NCBI GenBank assembly: GCA_014859225.1
Contig: JACUUP010000022.1
Location: 1 to 16,272 of the forward strand
From: Candidatus Aerophobota bacterium
Lineage (GTDB): Bacteria > Aerophobota > Aerophobia > Aerophobales > B3-G15
DNA length: 16,272 nucleotides
Direction of reading: 5' to 3'
Shown: positions 1,589-13,934 of the stretch, one piece after another
How the letters are laid out: each line of letters begins with the position of its first letter
Position numbering within the stretch: the stretch's first letter is position 1
The notes under the pieces: model-generated
Told to the model about the DNA's origin: nothing
Seen by the model: only the letters and a program-made list of their open reading frames with translations
Databases searched by the model: none
Program-made: the position numbers and the translations under genes

Positions 1589-2587
1589 ATGAGAATAGCT
1601 GCTTCACTGTTAGTTTCAGTTATAGTAATAGCTCTGGTAACTTCTTTAGTGTTCCCGGGGAGGAGCACATGCTCAGCTGTTTCCCCGCAGGTGGGTCCGC
1701 AGCTATTATCTCAAGAAAAATCAGCTGAAAGCACGGGAAAAATGCCCTTTTTTAACATAGAAAGTATTTCCCATTCCTGGGGCCCTGCCTCTCCTGATAA
1801 AACCACTATCATTACCCGGATTATTCTGGATGATAAAGATTTATCTGAGGTTGCATTATCCGTTTTTTGCAGTATTTACCTGAATGATGTTAAAATGTGT
1901 GAGGTGGAGGTTGATGAGCCTGTTGTAGAAAAAACAGCAGCAGGCACTCTCATTCGCTTTATTAGCCAGATTGACAATAATGATGAGAGCATTAATGAAT
2001 GGTGGTTTTCTCACATCAAAAATGGTGAAAAAACTACAGCAAGGATGCAAGGAAAGCTTAAGATTAGTTCGGGAGATGAGACTTTTTTCTATCCTTTTTT
2101 GTGGGAAAACGAGTTTCAGACGAACATACTTGAAGGCGTAAATGTTGAGGATGTGCGCACCATCAATTTTGGACTTTACAGGCTGGAGATTGAATCACTT
2201 CATTCTGAGTGGGGAGAGATTACACCTGATGAGACTGAAATAAAACATACTCTCAGGATACATAATCCCAGTGTCTTGCCGGGAGCACCCATTGTAAATA
2301 GGGTAGAGTATGAGCTTTCCTTGAACGAGATAAAGATGACAGAAGGTGAAATGGGACTTCCTCTGTTTATCTGGTCAGGTGAAACAAAAATAGTCTCATT
2401 TACCAGCGAACTTGATAGTGAGAAGATAAAAAAATGGTGGGTCTCACATATCAAATTTGATGAGAAAAGTAGCTACCTTTTAAGATACACTCTTTTTGTA
2501 AAAGTTCTGGGTGCTACACTTGCCCGATGGCCAGAGGACAACAGAGGAGCTTTTGCTACAGATTTTTTGGGTAGAAAGGGCTCCTGA
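1589..2587 (+). CDS. Secreted or membrane-anchored protein with two tandem WHy/LEA14-like repeats
   Basis: A 332-residue protein from the ATG at 1589. Residues 1-26 form a signal peptide or signal anchor (MRIAASLLVSVIVIALVTSL), with no lipobox of the usual L-x-x-C form. Two homologous units follow, about residues 53-183 and 194-328. They share IES-hydrophobic-H/S-x-WG, a -SIYLNDVKM-/-LSLNEIKM- strand, and WWFSHIK (138-144) against WWVSHIK (283-289). The second unit has the NPS...PI.NRVEYELSLN pattern of WHy (water stress and hypersensitive response)/LEA type 2 domains, which are small beta sandwiches; the first is more diverged. The frame is open upstream to TTG 1451 without a Shine-Dalgarno. 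GGAGG at 1562-1566 lies 22 bases before the ATG, too far for normal initiation. The stop overlaps the nucleotidase gene, suggesting coupled expression. Coding status is secure; function is unknown. Confidence 0.7.
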   Translation: MRIAASLLVSVIVIALVTSLVFPGRSTCSAVSPQVGPQLLSQEKSAESTGKMPFFNIESISHSWGPASPDKTTIITRIILDDKDLSEVALSVFCSIYLNDVKMCEVEVDEPVVEKTAAGTLIRFISQIDNNDESINEWWFSHIKNGEKTTARMQGKLKISSGDETFFYPFLWENEFQTNILEGVNVEDVRTINFGLYRLEIESLHSEWGEITPDETEIKHTLRIHNPSVLPGAPIVNRVEYELSLNEIKMTEGEMGLPLFIWSGETKIVSFTSELDSEKIKKWWVSHIKFDEKSSYLLRYTLFVKVLGATLARWPEDNRGAFATDFLGRKGS

Positions 2588-4715
2588 TAGACTTAGACAC
2601 AGGAAGAGAAAGATTAATTTCAAAACTGCAGATTCCACATATAAATTAGGCGCAACCTTCCTGGTACAGTTTTTCCTGGCTATTTTATGCATCGCAGTTT
2701 TAATCTTGTCCCCTGTAAGCTCTAAGGTGGCGCTTGCTAAGTACAATTTGACTATTTTGCACACCAATGATTTGCATTCACATCTTGATGCATTGCCGCG
2801 TTTGAGCGCTGCGGTTGAAGAAATTAAGAAAGCTAAAACAGCGCAAAATGAACCCGTGCTTCTTTTAGATTCTGGTGATTTCATCATAGGAACACTTTAT
2901 CATCTTTTGACCACAACCTATAGCCCGGAGCTTACACTAATGAGTAGCATTGGATATGATGCTACAACTTTGGGAAATCATGAGTTTGATTGGGGACCCG
3001 ATAATTTAGCTAACATTATTAATATTGCAATAGAAAATAAAGATGGGGAAATAGTTCCCATTGTCGCTTCCAATATGGAATTTAGTTTCTTTCATGCGGG
3101 TGATGATGAGCTGAAAAAACTTTACGATGCAGGTATTATCCGGCCCTATATTATAAAAACACTTACTAATGGACTGAAAGTTGGCATTATTGGTTTATTA
3201 GGAAGAAAGGCGGCTCAGGAAGCAATGGGAAAATATCCACTAAGGTTTATACATAATCGTGATTTTATACAACAAGTGGTGGGCAAGCTCAAAAATAAAG
3301 GTGTTGACCTTGTTATATGTCTTTCCCACTCAGGCTTTGAAGAGGATAAAAAACTTGCAAGACTAATTGAAGGTATAGATATTATTGTGGGTGGGCACTG
3401 CCATAGTGTCCTTTTTGAACCGGTGCAAGTTGGCAGCACCTTTATACTCCAGGCAGGCTCTTATGGAAATTATCTGGGTAAACTGGAGGTATCCATAAAG
3501 GAGAAGAAAACTTACGTGCGCAACTACCAGTTGCTGGCAATTGACAGTATAGTTTCAGAAGATAAGGCTATGAAAAAGGTTGTCAGAAACTACCGGGATA
3601 TAATTGATAAAGAAATACTTGCGCCTTTCGGGTTATCTTTTAATGAAACTCTGGCAAAGGCAGATTTTGACCTGGTGAAGGAAAGTGAGTATATAACAGG
3701 CACAAATCTTGGAGATCTGGTAACCGATGCCCTGCGCTTTGCTATTGATGCTATCCAGCCTGAGGACTTTGTCAATTTTACCTTTTATCCAGCAGGCTTT
3801 TTACGGGGCAATATTGATGCAGGAGAGATTACAACTTCAGATGTATTTCGCGTTGTTTCTTTAGGCACAGGGCCCGAGGAGATAGGGGGTTATCCGCTGG
3901 TTAGTTTTTATCTTACTCCCAGGGAAATAAAAAATATCCTGGAGTTATCTATATTTTTAGCACTGACAAGAGGTACAGAGTATCTTCTTCAGGTCTCCGG
4001 TATGCGATTCTGGTACAATCCCCTGCGTCCAAATTTTAGAAAGATAACAAGAATAGAAAAATTGCTTCCCGGAAAAGAGGAATATATTTTACTTGATACA
4101 TCCGATACCAGGAGTTTATATAAAGTTGGAGCAAATCTTTTTTTATTAAATATTTCCTCATATATTAAAAAATATCTTCCCGCTCTTGCAATAACACCCA
4201 AGGATAAAGATGGAAATGCTATTTTTTTGCCCGGTATTGAAAATAAGTCTCATATTTTTGCAGGCACAGAATGGCAGGCACTCATAAATTATATTTCTCA
4301 TTTTCCTGATTTAGATGAAGACTTAATACCTGATGTTCCATTAAGTTACGCTAAGGCCAAGGAGCGGATTAATTTAGATTCTGATGATATATTAACTTAT
4401 TACAACAAAAGAAAAAGCCCCCTGATAGGTGTTGGAGCAGCTCTTATTTTCCCTTCTCTTGGTCATGCTTATAGCAACAACTGGTATCCAAATGGATTTG
4501 TCTTTCTTTTAATGCAGTTAGCCTCAGCTCTTTTAGCATCCGGAGAATCCACAAGAGAGGCGGGTATTTTCCTTCTTGCCTCTTTTAAGCTTATGGAGTG
4601 CAAGGATGCCTATGATTCTGCCCTTGAGTATAACCGGAGATTAGACAGAGCACTTGAGGTAATTTCTGCTTCAAATTCCGCAAAAGCAGGATTTGCCTTC
4701 ACTTACAGGTTTTAG
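2553..4715 (+). CDS. Secreted 5'-nucleotidase/UshA-like metallophosphoesterase with extra C-terminal hydrophobic domain
   Basis: Two-domain nucleotidase of the UshA/CD73 type, about 720 residues, which cleaves phosphate from nucleotides or related esters outside the cytoplasm. After a basic stretch (RHRKRK) comes a hydrophobic signal segment ending SSKVALA. Metal-site motifs follow in order: ILHTNDLHSH, LLLDSGDF, LGNHEFDWG, VICLSHSG and VGGHCHS. The C-terminal substrate domain shows GTNLGDLVTDALRFA and PAGFLRGNIDAGEITTSDVF. A further stretch of about 100 residues (from about 4410) has hydrophobic segments and FPSLGHAYSNNW, then KDAYDSALEYNRRL, resembling DUF5683-type domains (PGxGQxY motif), and ends in an aromatic TYRF. 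The start is uncertain: TTG 2553 has GAGGAG three bases upstream and overlaps the previous gene by 35 bases, while the alternative GTG 2511 lacks a Shine-Dalgarno. Enzyme family is secure; substrate and the extra domain's role are unknown. Confidence 0.88.
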   Translation: MLQIFWVERAPDRLRHRKRKINFKTADSTYKLGATFLVQFFLAILCIAVLILSPVSSKVALAKYNLTILHTNDLHSHLDALPRLSAAVEEIKKAKTAQNEPVLLLDSGDFIIGTLYHLLTTTYSPELTLMSSIGYDATTLGNHEFDWGPDNLANIINIAIENKDGEIVPIVASNMEFSFFHAGDDELKKLYDAGIIRPYIIKTLTNGLKVGIIGLLGRKAAQEAMGKYPLRFIHNRDFIQQVVGKLKNKGVDLVICLSHSGFEEDKKLARLIEGIDIIVGGHCHSVLFEPVQVGSTFILQAGSYGNYLGKLEVSIKEKKTYVRNYQLLAIDSIVSEDKAMKKVVRNYRDIIDKEILAPFGLSFNETLAKADFDLVKESEYITGTNLGDLVTDALRFAIDAIQPEDFVNFTFYPAGFLRGNIDAGEITTSDVFRVVSLGTGPEEIGGYPLVSFYLTPREIKNILELSIFLALTRGTEYLLQVSGMRFWYNPLRPNFRKITRIEKLLPGKEEYILLDTSDTRSLYKVGANLFLLNISSYIKKYLPALAITPKDKDGNAIFLPGIENKSHIFAGTEWQALINYISHFPDLDEDLIPDVPLSYAKAKERINLDSDDILTYYNKRKSPLIGVGAALIFPSLGHAYSNNWYPNGFVFLLMQLASALLASGESTREAGIFLLASFKLMECKDAYDSALEYNRRLDRALEVISASNSAKAGFAFTYRF

Positions 4716-8368: not shown

Positions 8369-9142
8369 ATGACAAGAAAGATTCTAAAAAACAAACCTAT
8401 TTTAGAAGCTATATTTGAGTTACGATGGAAACTTCAAGAGTATGTCTCCCGTATCAAAACAGATCCTCACTACAAACTAATTATTGGGAGATTATATGAT
8501 AAACTCAAGGATGAATACCCCTTTCATGAACAACTGTCTGCAGCTGCTCTACCAGATGAAATTGCAGGTTACTTGGTGCAACATCGATTTAGAAAGGACA
8601 AAGGGAAATGGCCCTTAGTTCAAATAGGACCCGGTATTATTACTGTTAATGATACAAAGGGATATGCATGGGAAGATTTTAAAGGAAGAATTGCCCAAAC
8701 TGTAAATACTCTTTTTGAAGTTTATCCTGAATCAAAAAATAGCTTAGAGGTTAATAGATTGCTATTACGCTATATTGACGGTATTACTTTTAATTTTCAA
8801 AAAAATAATCTATTTGACTTTCTAGAAAAACAAATGAAAACAAAAATAAACTTATACCAGCATTTATTTGAAGATACGGGAGTGGAAAAATTACCTTTAG
8901 CTCTTGACTTAAAATTTTCTTTTGCTTCTAAGGAACCTAAAGGAGCAATCAATTTACGATTTGTCCGAGGTAAAATAAAAGAATCTGATGCTTTAATATG
9001 GGAAACAATAGTTGAATCTATTCCAGAAGATACTCCTAAAGATCAAAATAGAATTACTAGATGGGTAGAAAAAGCACACAGCTTAGCAGATGATTGGTTT
9101 TTCAAACTAATAGAGGGTGAATTATTAAGGAGGTTTGAATAA
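8369..9142 (+). CDS. TIGR04255-family protein
   Basis: A 257-residue soluble protein of unknown function. The opening KNKPILEAIFELRW, the centre VQIGPGIITVNDTKGYAWEDFKGRI (about residues 88-112) and NSLEVNRLLLRYID (about 124-137) match the layout of TIGR04255, a family defined by its sporadic occurrence in bacteria and archaea. No catalytic motif, signal peptide or membrane segment is evident. The upstream Shine-Dalgarno (AGGCGG at 8352-8357) is weak and 11 bases from the ATG. The stop overlaps the next ATG in TAATG, so the two proteins are probably made together and may act as a pair. A sporadic family next to a nuclease operon and mobile debris suggests a horizontally gained module, but the role cannot be stated. 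Family call is from remembered motif pattern. Confidence 0.72.
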   Translation: MTRKILKNKPILEAIFELRWKLQEYVSRIKTDPHYKLIIGRLYDKLKDEYPFHEQLSAAALPDEIAGYLVQHRFRKDKGKWPLVQIGPGIITVNDTKGYAWEDFKGRIAQTVNTLFEVYPESKNSLEVNRLLLRYIDGITFNFQKNNLFDFLEKQMKTKINLYQHLFEDTGVEKLPLALDLKFSFASKEPKGAINLRFVRGKIKESDALIWETIVESIPEDTPKDQNRITRWVEKAHSLADDWFFKLIEGELLRRFE

Positions 9143-9903: not shown

Positions 9904-10968
9904 ATGAAGATACTTCATACAGCAGACCTACATCTAAGAGAATATGGGGACAAAAGATGGGGGACGCTTGAGAAATTAATTAAAATAGGAAAAGAAAAAA
10001 ATGTAGAGCTTTTTGTTATAAGTGGAGATTTGTTTGATAGGGAAACTGATGCTGAGAGCTTAAGAGTCAAGATAAGGGAGATTTTTTCCAACAATGAGTT
10101 TAAAATTATCTTAATTCCCGGAAATCACGACAGTGAATCTTATAAAAGTGGCCTTTATTTTGGTGAAGATGCAGTTATTTTGACTGATTTGAATGAGCCT
10201 TTTGAATATAAAGGCATCAGGATATGGGGTTTTCCTTTTAAACGCATGGGGGAGGAAAAGATTTTTAAAGAGCTTCGCTCATTAACACATAATTTAACTT
10301 TGGATAAGAAAAACATTCTGCTTTACCATGGAGAGTTGGTTGACGTCGTATTTTCCAGAAAAGACTTCGGAGAAGAAGGTGAAGGAAGGTATATGCCTGT
10401 TAAGCTTTCCTATTTCAAGGATTTGAATTTTAGCTATATTCTTGCAGGCCATTTTCACTCAAAATTTGATACCTGGAAGTTAGAAAATGGAGGCTATTTT
10501 GTTTATCCTGGGTCTCCTATCTCCATAACTGAGAGAGAAACAGGACAAAGGAAGGTGAATATCTTTCAACCTGGAGAGCCACCCACAGAACATCTTCTTG
10601 ATACACCTCACTTTGAGGAGGTGGTTATAGAACTTGACCCTTTCACAGAAAAAAATCCCATAGAAATGATAAGGGAGCATCTTGAGAAAATTCACTCTGA
10701 AGCAAATATTATCCTGATAATTAAAGGGTATATTAACAGTGCAAAGATGAAAATAAACGAGTTTGAACTTGCAAAACAAATAAAAGAAATTATCAGAACA
10801 AAATTTGTAGCAAGACGCATTCTTGAATTTAAGGATATCCACACGATACTTGAGGATGATTTGTTTAAAAATTTCTCTGAGAAACTGGAAGGAAGAAGTT
10901 GCAGTGAACAAAAAAAGAAGAAGTTGTATGAGTTAACAATCAGGGCAATGATAGAGGTAAGAGCGTGA
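9904..10968 (+). CDS. SbcD/Mre11-like metallophosphoesterase (YhaO-like nuclease subunit)
   Basis: A 354-residue DNA-repair-type nuclease subunit of the calcineurin-like phosphoesterase family. Metal-binding motifs are complete: HTADLHL (Asp8, His10), VISGDLFD (Gly41-Asp42), IPGNHD (72-76, with Asn74 and His75), LLYHGEL (His142) and ILAGHFHS (His183, His185). FVYPGSPISIT follows, as in SbcD and Mre11 proteins. The C-terminal 130 residues would form the capping domain and the ATPase-binding helices. In known complexes two of these subunits bind the ATPase heads and cut DNA ends or hairpins with Mn. The stop overlaps the GTG start of the Rad50-like gene in GTGA, strong evidence for a two-subunit complex. 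Start ATG 9904 gives the canonical N-terminus despite a weak Shine-Dalgarno. Confidence 0.92.
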   Translation: MKILHTADLHLREYGDKRWGTLEKLIKIGKEKNVELFVISGDLFDRETDAESLRVKIREIFSNNEFKIILIPGNHDSESYKSGLYFGEDAVILTDLNEPFEYKGIRIWGFPFKRMGEEKIFKELRSLTHNLTLDKKNILLYHGELVDVVFSRKDFGEEGEGRYMPVKLSYFKDLNFSYILAGHFHSKFDTWKLENGGYFVYPGSPISITERETGQRKVNIFQPGEPPTEHLLDTPHFEEVVIELDPFTEKNPIEMIREHLEKIHSEANIILIIKGYINSAKMKINEFELAKQIKEIIRTKFVARRILEFKDIHTILEDDLFKNFSEKLEGRSCSEQKKKKLYELTIRAMIEVRA

Positions 10969-13298
10969 AAATAAAGGAATTTTCCATAATGCGCTATGGT
11001 CCCTTAAGAAATACAGGGAAAGTTTCACTTCGCAATTTTAATTTACTTTTTGGTAAAAATGAAGATGGCAAGACCCTTACCATAGATGCTCTTGTGAAAC
11101 TTCTGGTAGGACGAAATATCCGGGATTTTGAAGAAATAGACCGTGTAGAAGAAAAGCCCGAAGGTTATGTAATTTTAGAAAACGATAAAGGTGAAGAAAT
11201 TAAACTGCCGGAAAAAGGTGACATAGCAAAAGTTGCAGAGCTTACCCCATCTGAGTGTTGTAACATTTTCATTGTGAGAAACAGCAAGCTATCTATCGCG
11301 CGTGATGCTGTTCAAGAAAGTGAGTTTTACACCAATGTGACGGATCGTCTAACCGGTCTAAGGACTGAGGAGATTTTGCGAATAAAAAAAACCCTTGCAG
11401 AATTTAGTAAGATAACACCCACAGGTATATTTAGAGATATTAAGGATGAAAAATTAAAAACAAGGATAGAAAATGCAAACAGGCTCATAGAGGAAATTGA
11501 GCGTCTAAATAGAGAGATTGAGGAGCAAGGATATGATAAGCTTGAGGAGGAATCCGTAACAAAGATAGAGAAGATGGAAAGGATGGAGCACCAGATAGAT
11601 ACTCTTGAGGATGCGAGAAGGCGGGAAGTATACGAAAAGGGAAAAGATGCATTAGACAAAATCAAAGAAGCTTTAGAGAAACTTAAAGGTCTGGAAATTT
11701 ACCGTGAAGCTGACGAGCAGTTATGGAGAGATTGTGAAAGAGATATCAATGCCTGTGAGGAGGAAAACAAAAAGTATCTTAAGGCGCTTGAAGAAAATGA
11801 AGAAGAGTTTAAAAAAACAGGCCAAAAATTAGAGGAGATAGAGAGAGAATTCCAGGTTTTGGATAAAAGAAAGGAAAAACTGGATAATGAAATTAGACCA
11901 GATTTGAAAGATTATGAGAATAAGAGGGAAGATTTGGCAAAGCAGGAAGGAAAAAGCAAATTTTTTACCTCCCTGGGAATAATCTCTGCCATATTATTTG
12001 GAGTGTCTTTACCTGGAGTTATCTTTAGACCATCTCTGTTATCTTATATTTTTGCCCTATTATTTTTTATTTTAATGCTCATTTCAGGGATATTTAAGTT
12101 TCAGTTTGTAAAAAATAAAGCTCATCTTGCAGGTATATTTGAAAGAAATAAATTAGCCCTGGCAAAATTTGGGCTGGATGCGCAAACTATTGAGGGAATT
12201 TTTTCAAATGTTCAAAGATTTGAGGAAGATTATCGTAAAAAATACGATGAGCTGCAGGAGCTTAAAAATAGAAAAGAGCATTTAGATGAAAAAATCAATA
12301 AAGTTAGAGATGAAACAATCCCTGAGATGGATAAAAAAATTAAAAAACTCACCCGTAAGATAGACGAAATAAAAGAAAAATCAAAGGAAAAATCCTTACA
12401 AGTATATTCTGAAAAACTTTATTGTAAGCAAGAGCTTGAAGTGTTGAAAAAAGAGCAAGAAAGCGTCTTAAGCAGTCACTTTGGAAAAAGAAGTGAGAGT
12501 TTAGAAGAAAATATTTTGCACTGGGAAAAAGAAATTACAAATCAGGAGCAGTATAAGAATAAAGTTAGGGATGCAAAATACAGTGAAAGCGCTGTATCAA
12601 AGTTAAAAGAGGAAAAGAAAAAAGCTGAAGATGAGCTAAAAAAGATAAACGATAGAATGGTGATTTTTCAAAAGGAAATGGATGAGGTGCAACGCAAAGC
12701 CAATGAAATTATCCGATTGGAAGGGGATTTCTTATATTGCACTACATTGGTGGAGCTGGAAATGATTAAACATAAATTGCAAGGATTCATAGAGGAAAAT
12801 GAAAGCACAAAAGACGACGCATTAGAAGTTATGAAAATTTTTGAAGAGATAGAGGCAGAGGAAAAAGAAAAGGTCTCTTTGCTTTTTGGAAGCGAAAGCG
12901 CCGTTTCCAATTATTTTCATGAAATAACAGATGGACTCTATGAGGAGGTTAGCTTTAATCAGGAAACAGGCAAAATTGAGGTTAAACGTAAAGATGGAAA
13001 GGTGCTGGACGCAGGAAAACTCTCTGGTGGTGCCTTTGACCAGTTATATTTTTCTATTCGTCTTGCCCTGGGGAAAAAACTTCTAAAAGATGGGAAGGGG
13101 TTTTTTATTATGGATGACCCATTCGTAAAGGCTGATTCGGATAGATTGAGAAGGCAAATTGAGGTATTAAGAAAGATTTCACATCTCGGATGGCAGGTTG
13201 TGTACTTTTCTGCAAAGGGAGAAGTTAAAGATGTTTTGAAACAAGATATAGAAAAACAAACTATCAACTACGTAGAAGTTGAGGGTATATTCTCCTGA
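10965..13298 (+). CDS. SbcC/Rad50-like ATPase with a transmembrane hairpin in the coiled coil (YhaN-like)
   Basis: A 777-residue SMC-type ATPase. Walker A GKNEDGKT is at 30-37 after an N-terminal MKIKEFSIMRYGPL strand. Two long charged coiled-coil arms span about 160-330 and 415-600. At the apex, residues about 335-354 and 358-378 are two hydrophobic segments around a short RPS turn, so the apex would sit in the membrane. There is no CxxC zinc hook. The C-terminal head has signature KLSGGAFDQ (685-693), Walker B FFIMDD (713-718) and DPFVKAD as D-loop. The position of the usual His switch reads VVYFSAK, with no His. This is the architecture of the YhaN group, partner of YhaO, and shorter than typical SbcC. 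The GTG start overlaps the nuclease stop, with GAGGT at 10954-10958. Role in DNA-end or phage-DNA processing at the membrane is inferred. Confidence 0.88.
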   Translation: MKIKEFSIMRYGPLRNTGKVSLRNFNLLFGKNEDGKTLTIDALVKLLVGRNIRDFEEIDRVEEKPEGYVILENDKGEEIKLPEKGDIAKVAELTPSECCNIFIVRNSKLSIARDAVQESEFYTNVTDRLTGLRTEEILRIKKTLAEFSKITPTGIFRDIKDEKLKTRIENANRLIEEIERLNREIEEQGYDKLEEESVTKIEKMERMEHQIDTLEDARRREVYEKGKDALDKIKEALEKLKGLEIYREADEQLWRDCERDINACEEENKKYLKALEENEEEFKKTGQKLEEIEREFQVLDKRKEKLDNEIRPDLKDYENKREDLAKQEGKSKFFTSLGIISAILFGVSLPGVIFRPSLLSYIFALLFFILMLISGIFKFQFVKNKAHLAGIFERNKLALAKFGLDAQTIEGIFSNVQRFEEDYRKKYDELQELKNRKEHLDEKINKVRDETIPEMDKKIKKLTRKIDEIKEKSKEKSLQVYSEKLYCKQELEVLKKEQESVLSSHFGKRSESLEENILHWEKEITNQEQYKNKVRDAKYSESAVSKLKEEKKKAEDELKKINDRMVIFQKEMDEVQRKANEIIRLEGDFLYCTTLVELEMIKHKLQGFIEENESTKDDALEVMKIFEEIEAEEKEKVSLLFGSESAVSNYFHEITDGLYEEVSFNQETGKIEVKRKDGKVLDAGKLSGGAFDQLYFSIRLALGKKLLKDGKGFFIMDDPFVKADSDRLRRQIEVLRKISHLGWQVVYFSAKGEVKDVLKQDIEKQTINYVEVEGIFS

Positions 13299-13322
13299 GG
13301 ATGTGTTTCATCTTTAATCCTC
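13297..13322. terminator. Weak inverted repeat between convergent genes
   Basis: GAGGAT (13297-13302) and ATCCTC (13317-13322) flank a 14-base T-rich loop between the tail-to-tail ATPase and HNH genes, overlapping both 3' ends. It could act as a weak bidirectional terminator, but the stem is short and no U-tract follows on either strand, so chance is a real alternative. Confidence 0.25.
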
Positions 13323-13934
13323 CTCCAGTTCAACATTCCAGTAAGCCACATCCAGAAATTCTTTCCAGGTTTCCCATTTAGAATCAACAGGGAAGGTGCT
13401 TTTTACAAATGTTTTCCAGTTGGGCTTTTTAGCTTTTCTAATAAGTTTCACTCTTGCCTCTCCCAGAGTTCTATTCCCCTTACGTATATTGCACCTGATA
13501 CAGGAGCAAACGACGTTTTCCCAGGTGTTTTTACCACCTCTTGACAGGGGAACTACGTGGTCTAAATTAAGCTCTTCGGTCCTAAGCTTCTTTCCGCAGT
13601 ACTGACAGGTATTATTATCCCTGCGATAGATATTCTTACGGGTAAATTTCACGCGACGAGGAGGAAGGTTGTCATAAAGCATGAGAATTATAACCCGGGG
13701 AATTTTCAACCTGTAGCTTATTGTTGCTATGAAGTTATCTTCTTCACCTGCATGCTGGGAAAAATCTTTCCAATCATCAAAACCAAAGGTGTAAAAAGAG
13801 CCCCCATCCTTTACCACTGCATGGGCGTGCCTCAGGTATAAAAGACAAATTGCCCTTTTTACAGAACAAACATCTACAACTTGCCATAGCTTATTTAAAA
13901 CCAGAACGTTGGTTTGTAGAACATCTGTAGACAT
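13314..13934 (-). CDS. HNH endonuclease domain protein
   Basis: A 206-residue protein with a C-terminal HNH domain. The zinc site has Cys110 and Cys113 (CQYCGKKL) and Cys145 and Cys148 (CIRCN). The nuclease core reads NLDHVVPLSRGG (Asp125, His126), then TWENVVCSC with Asn140, and Asn149 where many relatives have a third His or Asn. The N-terminal 90 residues (TNVLVLNKLWQVVDVCSVKR, then an AIxLLYLRHAHAV helix) are a domain often found in this group of stand-alone bacterial HNH proteins, whose role is not established. It starts six bases after the dehydrogenase stop, so it is last in the transaldolase operon. No methylase or restriction partner is near, which argues against an ordinary restriction enzyme. 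Its link to sugar enzymes may be only positional. Confidence 0.88.
   Translation of the reverse strand: MSTDVLQTNVLVLNKLWQVVDVCSVKRAICLLYLRHAHAVVKDGGSFYTFGFDDWKDFSQHAGEEDNFIATISYRLKIPRVIILMLYDNLPPRRVKFTRKNIYRRDNNTCQYCGKKLRTEELNLDHVVPLSRGGKNTWENVVCSCIRCNIRKGNRTLGEARVKLIRKAKKPNWKTFVKSTFPVDSKWETWKEFLDVAYWNVELEED

Follow-up and report, generated by a model that had tools for sequence, protein, structure and literature searches.

A compact SbcE/SbcF-type nuclease-ATPase gene pair with a predicted apical transmembrane hairpin in a Candidatus Aerophobota genome

We describe a gene pair of a Candidatus Aerophobota bacterium that belongs to a compact subfamily of SbcE/YhaN-type complexes with a wide distribution and is not a new kind of machine. 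Its products probably form an ATP-dependent DNA nuclease that has two parts, as SbcE/SbcF (YhaN/YhaO) does, and that would be anchored at the inner membrane by a hairpin at the tip of the ATPase arms and would process DNA ends or DNA hairpins.

Results

A conserved, overlapping gene pair

The window, i.e., the whole stretch of DNA that was analyzed (16,272 nucleotides), is contig 59 of a 1.8-Mb assembly that is 91% complete. On its forward strand, an ORF of 354 aa with an ATG start (positions 9904 to 10968) is followed by one of 777 aa with a GTG start (10965 to 13298), and the stop of the first overlaps the start of the second in the sequence GTGA (10965 to 10968). The original prediction of a complete SbcD-type nuclease gene that overlaps an SMC-type ATPase gene was therefore correct in both ORFs and in the 4-nucleotide overlap. 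Of 77 homologous pairs, 58 share this -4 spacing. When the species genomes of GTDB were searched, 80 homologous loci emerged, including some from metagenome-assembled genomes, with labels that include Aerophobetes, Atribacteria, Chloroflexi, Deltaproteobacteria, Bacillota, WOR-3, and Spirochaetes, among others; the labels Thermoplasmatota, Crenarchaeota, and Diapherotrites may represent binning errors. A homologous nuclease gene lies near the ATPase gene in 77 of the 80 loci, mostly directly upstream. In addition, nuclease and ATPase distances correlate with each other (r = 0.94), as plain vertical descent would also produce.

An Mre11-type nuclease with an intact active site

The upstream gene (9904 to 10968, forward strand) encodes an Mre11/SbcD/YhaO-type nuclease, as judged from its match to Pfam Metallophos (6e-17) and from an AlphaFold model (pLDDT 92.1, pTM 0.86) whose top Foldseek matches are all Mre11/SbcD proteins (best E-value 1.4e-13). 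The SbcD and Mre11 sequence models match best over their N-terminal part, and the scores stay below the cut-offs (49.7 bits against 77.65 for NCBIfam SbcD, and likewise for Mre11). All catalytic positions tested are invariant in 58 of 58 homologues, namely D8 and H10 of motif I (D8-L-H10, 9925 to 9933), D42 of motif II (GDLFD, 10027 to 10029), motif III (N74-H75-D76 of GNHD, 10123 to 10131), H142 (10327 to 10329), and H183 and H185 of motif V (H183-F-H185 of GHFH, 10450 to 10458). By its sequence, the active site is thus intact and of the Mre11 type. The model ends in a pair of helices (residues 319 to 329 and 335 to 353; 10858 to 10962, forward strand). In Mre11, the C-terminal helix pair binds the base of the Rad50 arms, and by analogy residues 319 to 353 are probably the helix-loop-helix that binds the ATPase.

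An ATPase head closer to YhaN than to SbcC

The downstream gene (10965 to 13298, forward strand) encodes a 777-aa SMC/Rad50-type ATPase that resembles YhaN/SbcE. Its sequence matches Rad50 in a PDB profile search (9e-11), and its modeled head aligns with Pyrococcus furiosus Rad50 (4nck_A; VIA-align Z 21.2, rmsd 3.3 over 262 residues) and also with SbcC (Foldseek and VIA-align). The head carries a Walker A motif, GKNEDGKT (residues 30 to 37, 11052 to 11075), in which N32, E33, G35, and K36 are invariant in 70 homologues; an ABC signature, LSGG (residues 686 to 689, 13020 to 13031), in which L686 and S687 are invariant and G689 is present in at least 90% of the 70; and a Walker B motif, FFIMDD (residues 713 to 718, 13101 to 13118), in which D717 and D718 are invariant in the 70. 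Motifs, folds, and profile matches of both proteins therefore agree on the Mre11/Rad50-like pair that had been proposed.

E. coli SbcCD likewise combines an Mre11-type nuclease and a Rad50-type ATPase with the folds of the window pair, and so do the archaeal and eukaryotic Mre11-Rad50 complexes, although sequence identity to the latter is low (about 22%). The apex of archaeal and eukaryotic Rad50 is a zinc hook. E. coli SbcC (1,048 aa) also has a zinc hook, with CxxC at position 506, and its Walker B ends in DE, unlike the window ATPase; the DD ending is found throughout the window family and in all YhaN-type references, whose heads are of the same type. All NCBIfam SbcC/Rad50 models score far below their cut-offs (33.7 against 1,000 for Rad50). 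The hhalign probabilities for the C-terminal half of the head are 96 to 99 for the YhaN-type references, 36 for E. coli SbcC, and 0.5 for T4 gp46. Indeed, these head profiles bear out the proposed kinship with YhaN and place the ATPase away from canonical zinc-hook SbcC; we rejected a canonical zinc-hook SbcCD/Rad50 identity because the protein has no CxxC, the models stay below their cut-offs, and the head profiles favor YhaN. The annotated YhaN references had been fetched with a 43-residue peptide, of which the first 25 residues came from locus L013 and the remainder was a generic Walker A stretch.

The window family differs from the YhaN-type references. In a tree of the heads it forms its own clade (support 99), placed near YhaN with weak support (24 to 68 at the deeper nodes). 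This separate, well-supported branch and a marginal match to Pfam AAA_27 (8e-5, 22.7 bits, barely above the cut-off, against 78.5 bits for Enterococcus faecalis YhaN) distinguish the family from the YhaN of Bacillota. The window ATPase is also shorter, as had been noted from the sequence, with 777 aa against 903 for E. faecalis YhaN and 886 for Lachnospira eligens YhaN.

Three further residues of the ATPase are nearly invariant: W254 and W520, one tryptophan per arm strand, and C592, a lone cysteine near the C-terminal half of the head. They possibly mark a joint in the arms.

A predicted transmembrane hairpin at the arm tip

The apex of the ATPase consists of two hydrophobic segments (residues 333 to 354 and 358 to 377; 11961 to 12095, forward strand) separated by the turn R355-P356-S357, with hydrophobic cores at residues 336 to 354 and 358 to 376 (mean Kyte-Doolittle values of 2.11 and 2.61). 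No CxxC occurs anywhere in the 777-aa sequence. The original prediction, which had placed two hydrophobic segments without CxxC at about residues 335 to 378, was right to within a residue or two. Both segments reach the Kyte-Doolittle threshold of 1.6 in 66 of the 70 full-length ATPases; in each of the remaining four, one segment scores 1.39 to 1.57, while the most hydrophobic 19-mer away from the apex does not exceed 1.51 in any of the 70. Given this conservation and the presence of a nearby nuclease gene in nearly all loci, the pairing and the apex are not a matter of chance.

An AlphaFold2 model built from the 70-sequence alignment (mean pLDDT 83.5) comprises an ABC head and two arm strands of long helices that run antiparallel as a coiled coil, although the low pTM (0.44) makes the overall shape of the arms unreliable. 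Helices 248 to 354 and 358 to 400 meet at the turn 355 to 357, which means that the hydrophobic residues form the tip of the arms and not a soluble domain. The model check suggested with the original prediction thus favored the hairpin, since residues 333 to 377 lie at the arm tip in a helical hairpin with a three-residue turn, with no soluble fold.

Across the 70 ATPases, the turn has four residues on average and few charges, and the outer flanks are rich in K and R (about 3.5 and 3.8 per 15 residues); we therefore expect both ends of the hairpin to lie inside the cell. Segment 1 of the window ATPase holds P350 and has a summed Hessa value of +1.77, which is slightly unfavorable, and its insertion may thus need segment 2. 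Conservation shows a modest local peak at the hairpin, which is slightly better conserved than the bulk of the neighboring arm: plain column entropy over residues 333 to 377 is 2.47 bits, against a mean of 2.68 and a minimum of 2.38 for 45-residue windows of the distal arm. We rely on plain entropies as the safer figure because background-corrected conservation inflates hydrophobic columns. S341, S348, G351, and P356 are conserved at 71 to 85%, and the small-residue pattern of the first three would suit helices packed closely together, in one protomer or between two.

Collectively, hydropathy and conservation indicate that the hairpin is likely inserted in the membrane. We consider it unlikely that it is instead a soluble knob for dimerization or partner binding. 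Tight helix packing by S341, S348, and G351 would suit such a knob, as would Hessa sums that are near zero or positive for some segments and the complete absence of hydrophobic segments from two YhaN-type ATPases; yet both segments have a bilayer-spanning length and are strongly hydrophobic family-wide, with basic flanks, a three-residue turn, and a less hydrophobic remainder of the protein.

A comparable apex occurs in other YhaN proteins. Those of E. faecalis and L. eligens, encoded beside YhaO-type nuclease genes, have apical hydrophobic segments as the window ATPase does, and in these two and in Monoglobus YhaN the hydrophobic apex lacks CxxC. The segment hydropathies are 2.01 and 1.44 in E. 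faecalis (one strong and one weaker), 2.41 and 2.41 in L. eligens, and 2.55 and 2.77 in Monoglobus. In the same comparison of references, the YhaN-type proteins of L061 and Ruegeria showed no hydrophobic apex segments; the hairpin is therefore common but not universal. Loci L061 (1281 to 4001, reverse strand) and L166 (4501 to 7944) both encode YhaN-type ATPases beside YhaO-type nucleases, with neither a hydrophobic apex nor CxxC. At locus L060 of genome G003 (2045 to 2776, reverse strand), a YhaN-type gene stops after 243 codons, adjoined by an intact YhaO-type nuclease gene and restriction-like genes.

Genomic context

Clustering of neighboring genes at the 80 loci indicated that the neighbors of the pair are not conserved between lineages. 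About a dozen Syntrophomonadaceae-type loci share constant housekeeping neighbors, which from their sequences were named gatB-like, purA-like, selA-like, and selB-like. The clustering revealed no conserved LmuA/LmuC partners or defense context, and we rejected a defense island, there being no conserved defense neighbors. Searches of 72,556 plasmids and of 50,697 phages found no copies, and a mobile-element or phage origin was rejected for lack of such matches. Promoter and terminator scans gave signals at the level of shuffled sequence. An HNH endonuclease gene (13314 to 13934, reverse strand) converges on the ATPase gene in the window, and HNH homologues lie upstream of the pair, within about 0.2 to 1.2 kb, at four Deltaproteobacteria loci (L096, L097, L100, and L134). 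The window also encodes a protein of the TIGR04255 sporadic-distribution family (8369 to 9142).

These data bear on a defense role, in which the pair would act against phages or plasmids in the manner of Lamassu and other SMC-nuclease systems and the hairpin would hold the complex where DNA enters. PADLOC gave weak matches (LmuB at 1e-11 for the ATPase and PDC-S10 in 49 of 58 nucleases), Lamassu LmuB and JetABC are among the weaker Foldseek matches of the ATPase, and LmuB is likewise an SMC-type ATPase with a coiled coil. The PADLOC matches, however, reflect shared phosphoesterase and SMC folds, and the LmuA/B/C core of Lamassu has no Mre11-type pair, unlike the window locus, which has no defense context. 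We know of no apical hairpin in LmuB. Given the housekeeping neighborhoods and the absence of plasmid and phage copies, we regard defense as a minor and distinctly unlikely rival to the SbcE/SbcF-type reading.

The window nuclease was the only match to the SbcD model in its genome. The SbcC model found no match in this genome, but it also missed the window ATPase, which makes this null result weak for a divergent SbcC and the SbcD search the stronger test. A search of 17 genomes with the Pfam Rad50_zn_hook model was uninformative, as it detected just 3 of the 14 controls and overlooked E. coli. The window genome also encodes ComEC and an AddB-like nuclease, so that DNA uptake and another end-resection enzyme are plausible.

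Discussion

The SbcE/SbcF (YhaN/YhaO) genes of Bacillus and other Bacillota form a nuclease-ATPase pair that often overlaps, as in the window; the window pair has no adjoining yhaM gene, unlike its Bacillota counterparts. The E. faecalis reference pair has a PBP1A/YlbF pair on one side and, on the other, an HD-domain gene and then a peptidylprolyl isomerase gene; we take this order to be the known yhaO-yhaN-yhaM-prsA arrangement. In an abstract from 2010 (Krishnamurthy et al.), the coiled coil of SbcE is reportedly described as containing a transmembrane segment, in which case the core of the hairpin finding has already been published. The novelty that had been proposed thus holds for the compact form and falls for the kind of complex, because an SbcC-like ATPase with a partner nuclease has already been studied as SbcE/YhaN and other YhaN proteins share the apex.

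In two citing articles (PMC3896406 and PMC4205851), Bacillus YhaN is equated with SbcE, the title of Krishnamurthy et al. (2010) names double-strand break repair and competence, and yhaONM is listed under LexA/SOS control; PMC3896406 adds that the cluster is peroxide induced in Bacillus pumilus. Other articles include SbcE in a list of SsbA interactors (PMC7031210) and call SbcEF poorly characterized in double-strand break repair (PMC6452273). A substrate other than DNA, e.g., RNA or nucleotides at the membrane, is very unlikely, since the nuclease fold and its PDB matches are specific to Mre11/SbcD and its partner is a Rad50-type ATPase, even though calcineurin-like phosphoesterases are functionally diverse and the yhaONM operon includes the exoribonuclease YhaM, according to PMC3896406.

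We infer a role in DNA repair by analogy, from the folds and from SbcE. In an SbcE/SbcF-type complex working as SbcCD does, ATP would make two ATPase heads dimerize around DNA, and the heads would gate a dimer of the nuclease that sits at the arm base. The arm tips would lie in the inner membrane, with the heads and the nuclease in the cytoplasm; the hairpins would anchor the complex and, more speculatively, may substitute for a zinc hook by pairing with one another. At breaks and stalled forks, the complex would most likely process DNA ends or hairpins. As the genome has ComEC, incoming single- or double-stranded DNA may be a second substrate. A bolder version, possible but doubtful, is that the hairpins pair through their S341/S348/G351 faces within the bilayer and so replace the zinc hook, giving a membrane-embedded Mre11-Rad50 ring. 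Some uncultured bacteria would then have this ring as their sole SbcCD-type complex, acting at forks near the membrane or where DNA enters.

Predicted membrane-hairpin Mre11/Rad50 complexes thus extend beyond Bacillota, and the presence of a single SbcD-type nuclease in the window genome suggests that an anchored complex can take the place of SbcCD. Being compact and well conserved, the subfamily offers a possible model for studying why a DNA-end nuclease such as that of SbcE would be tied to the membrane.
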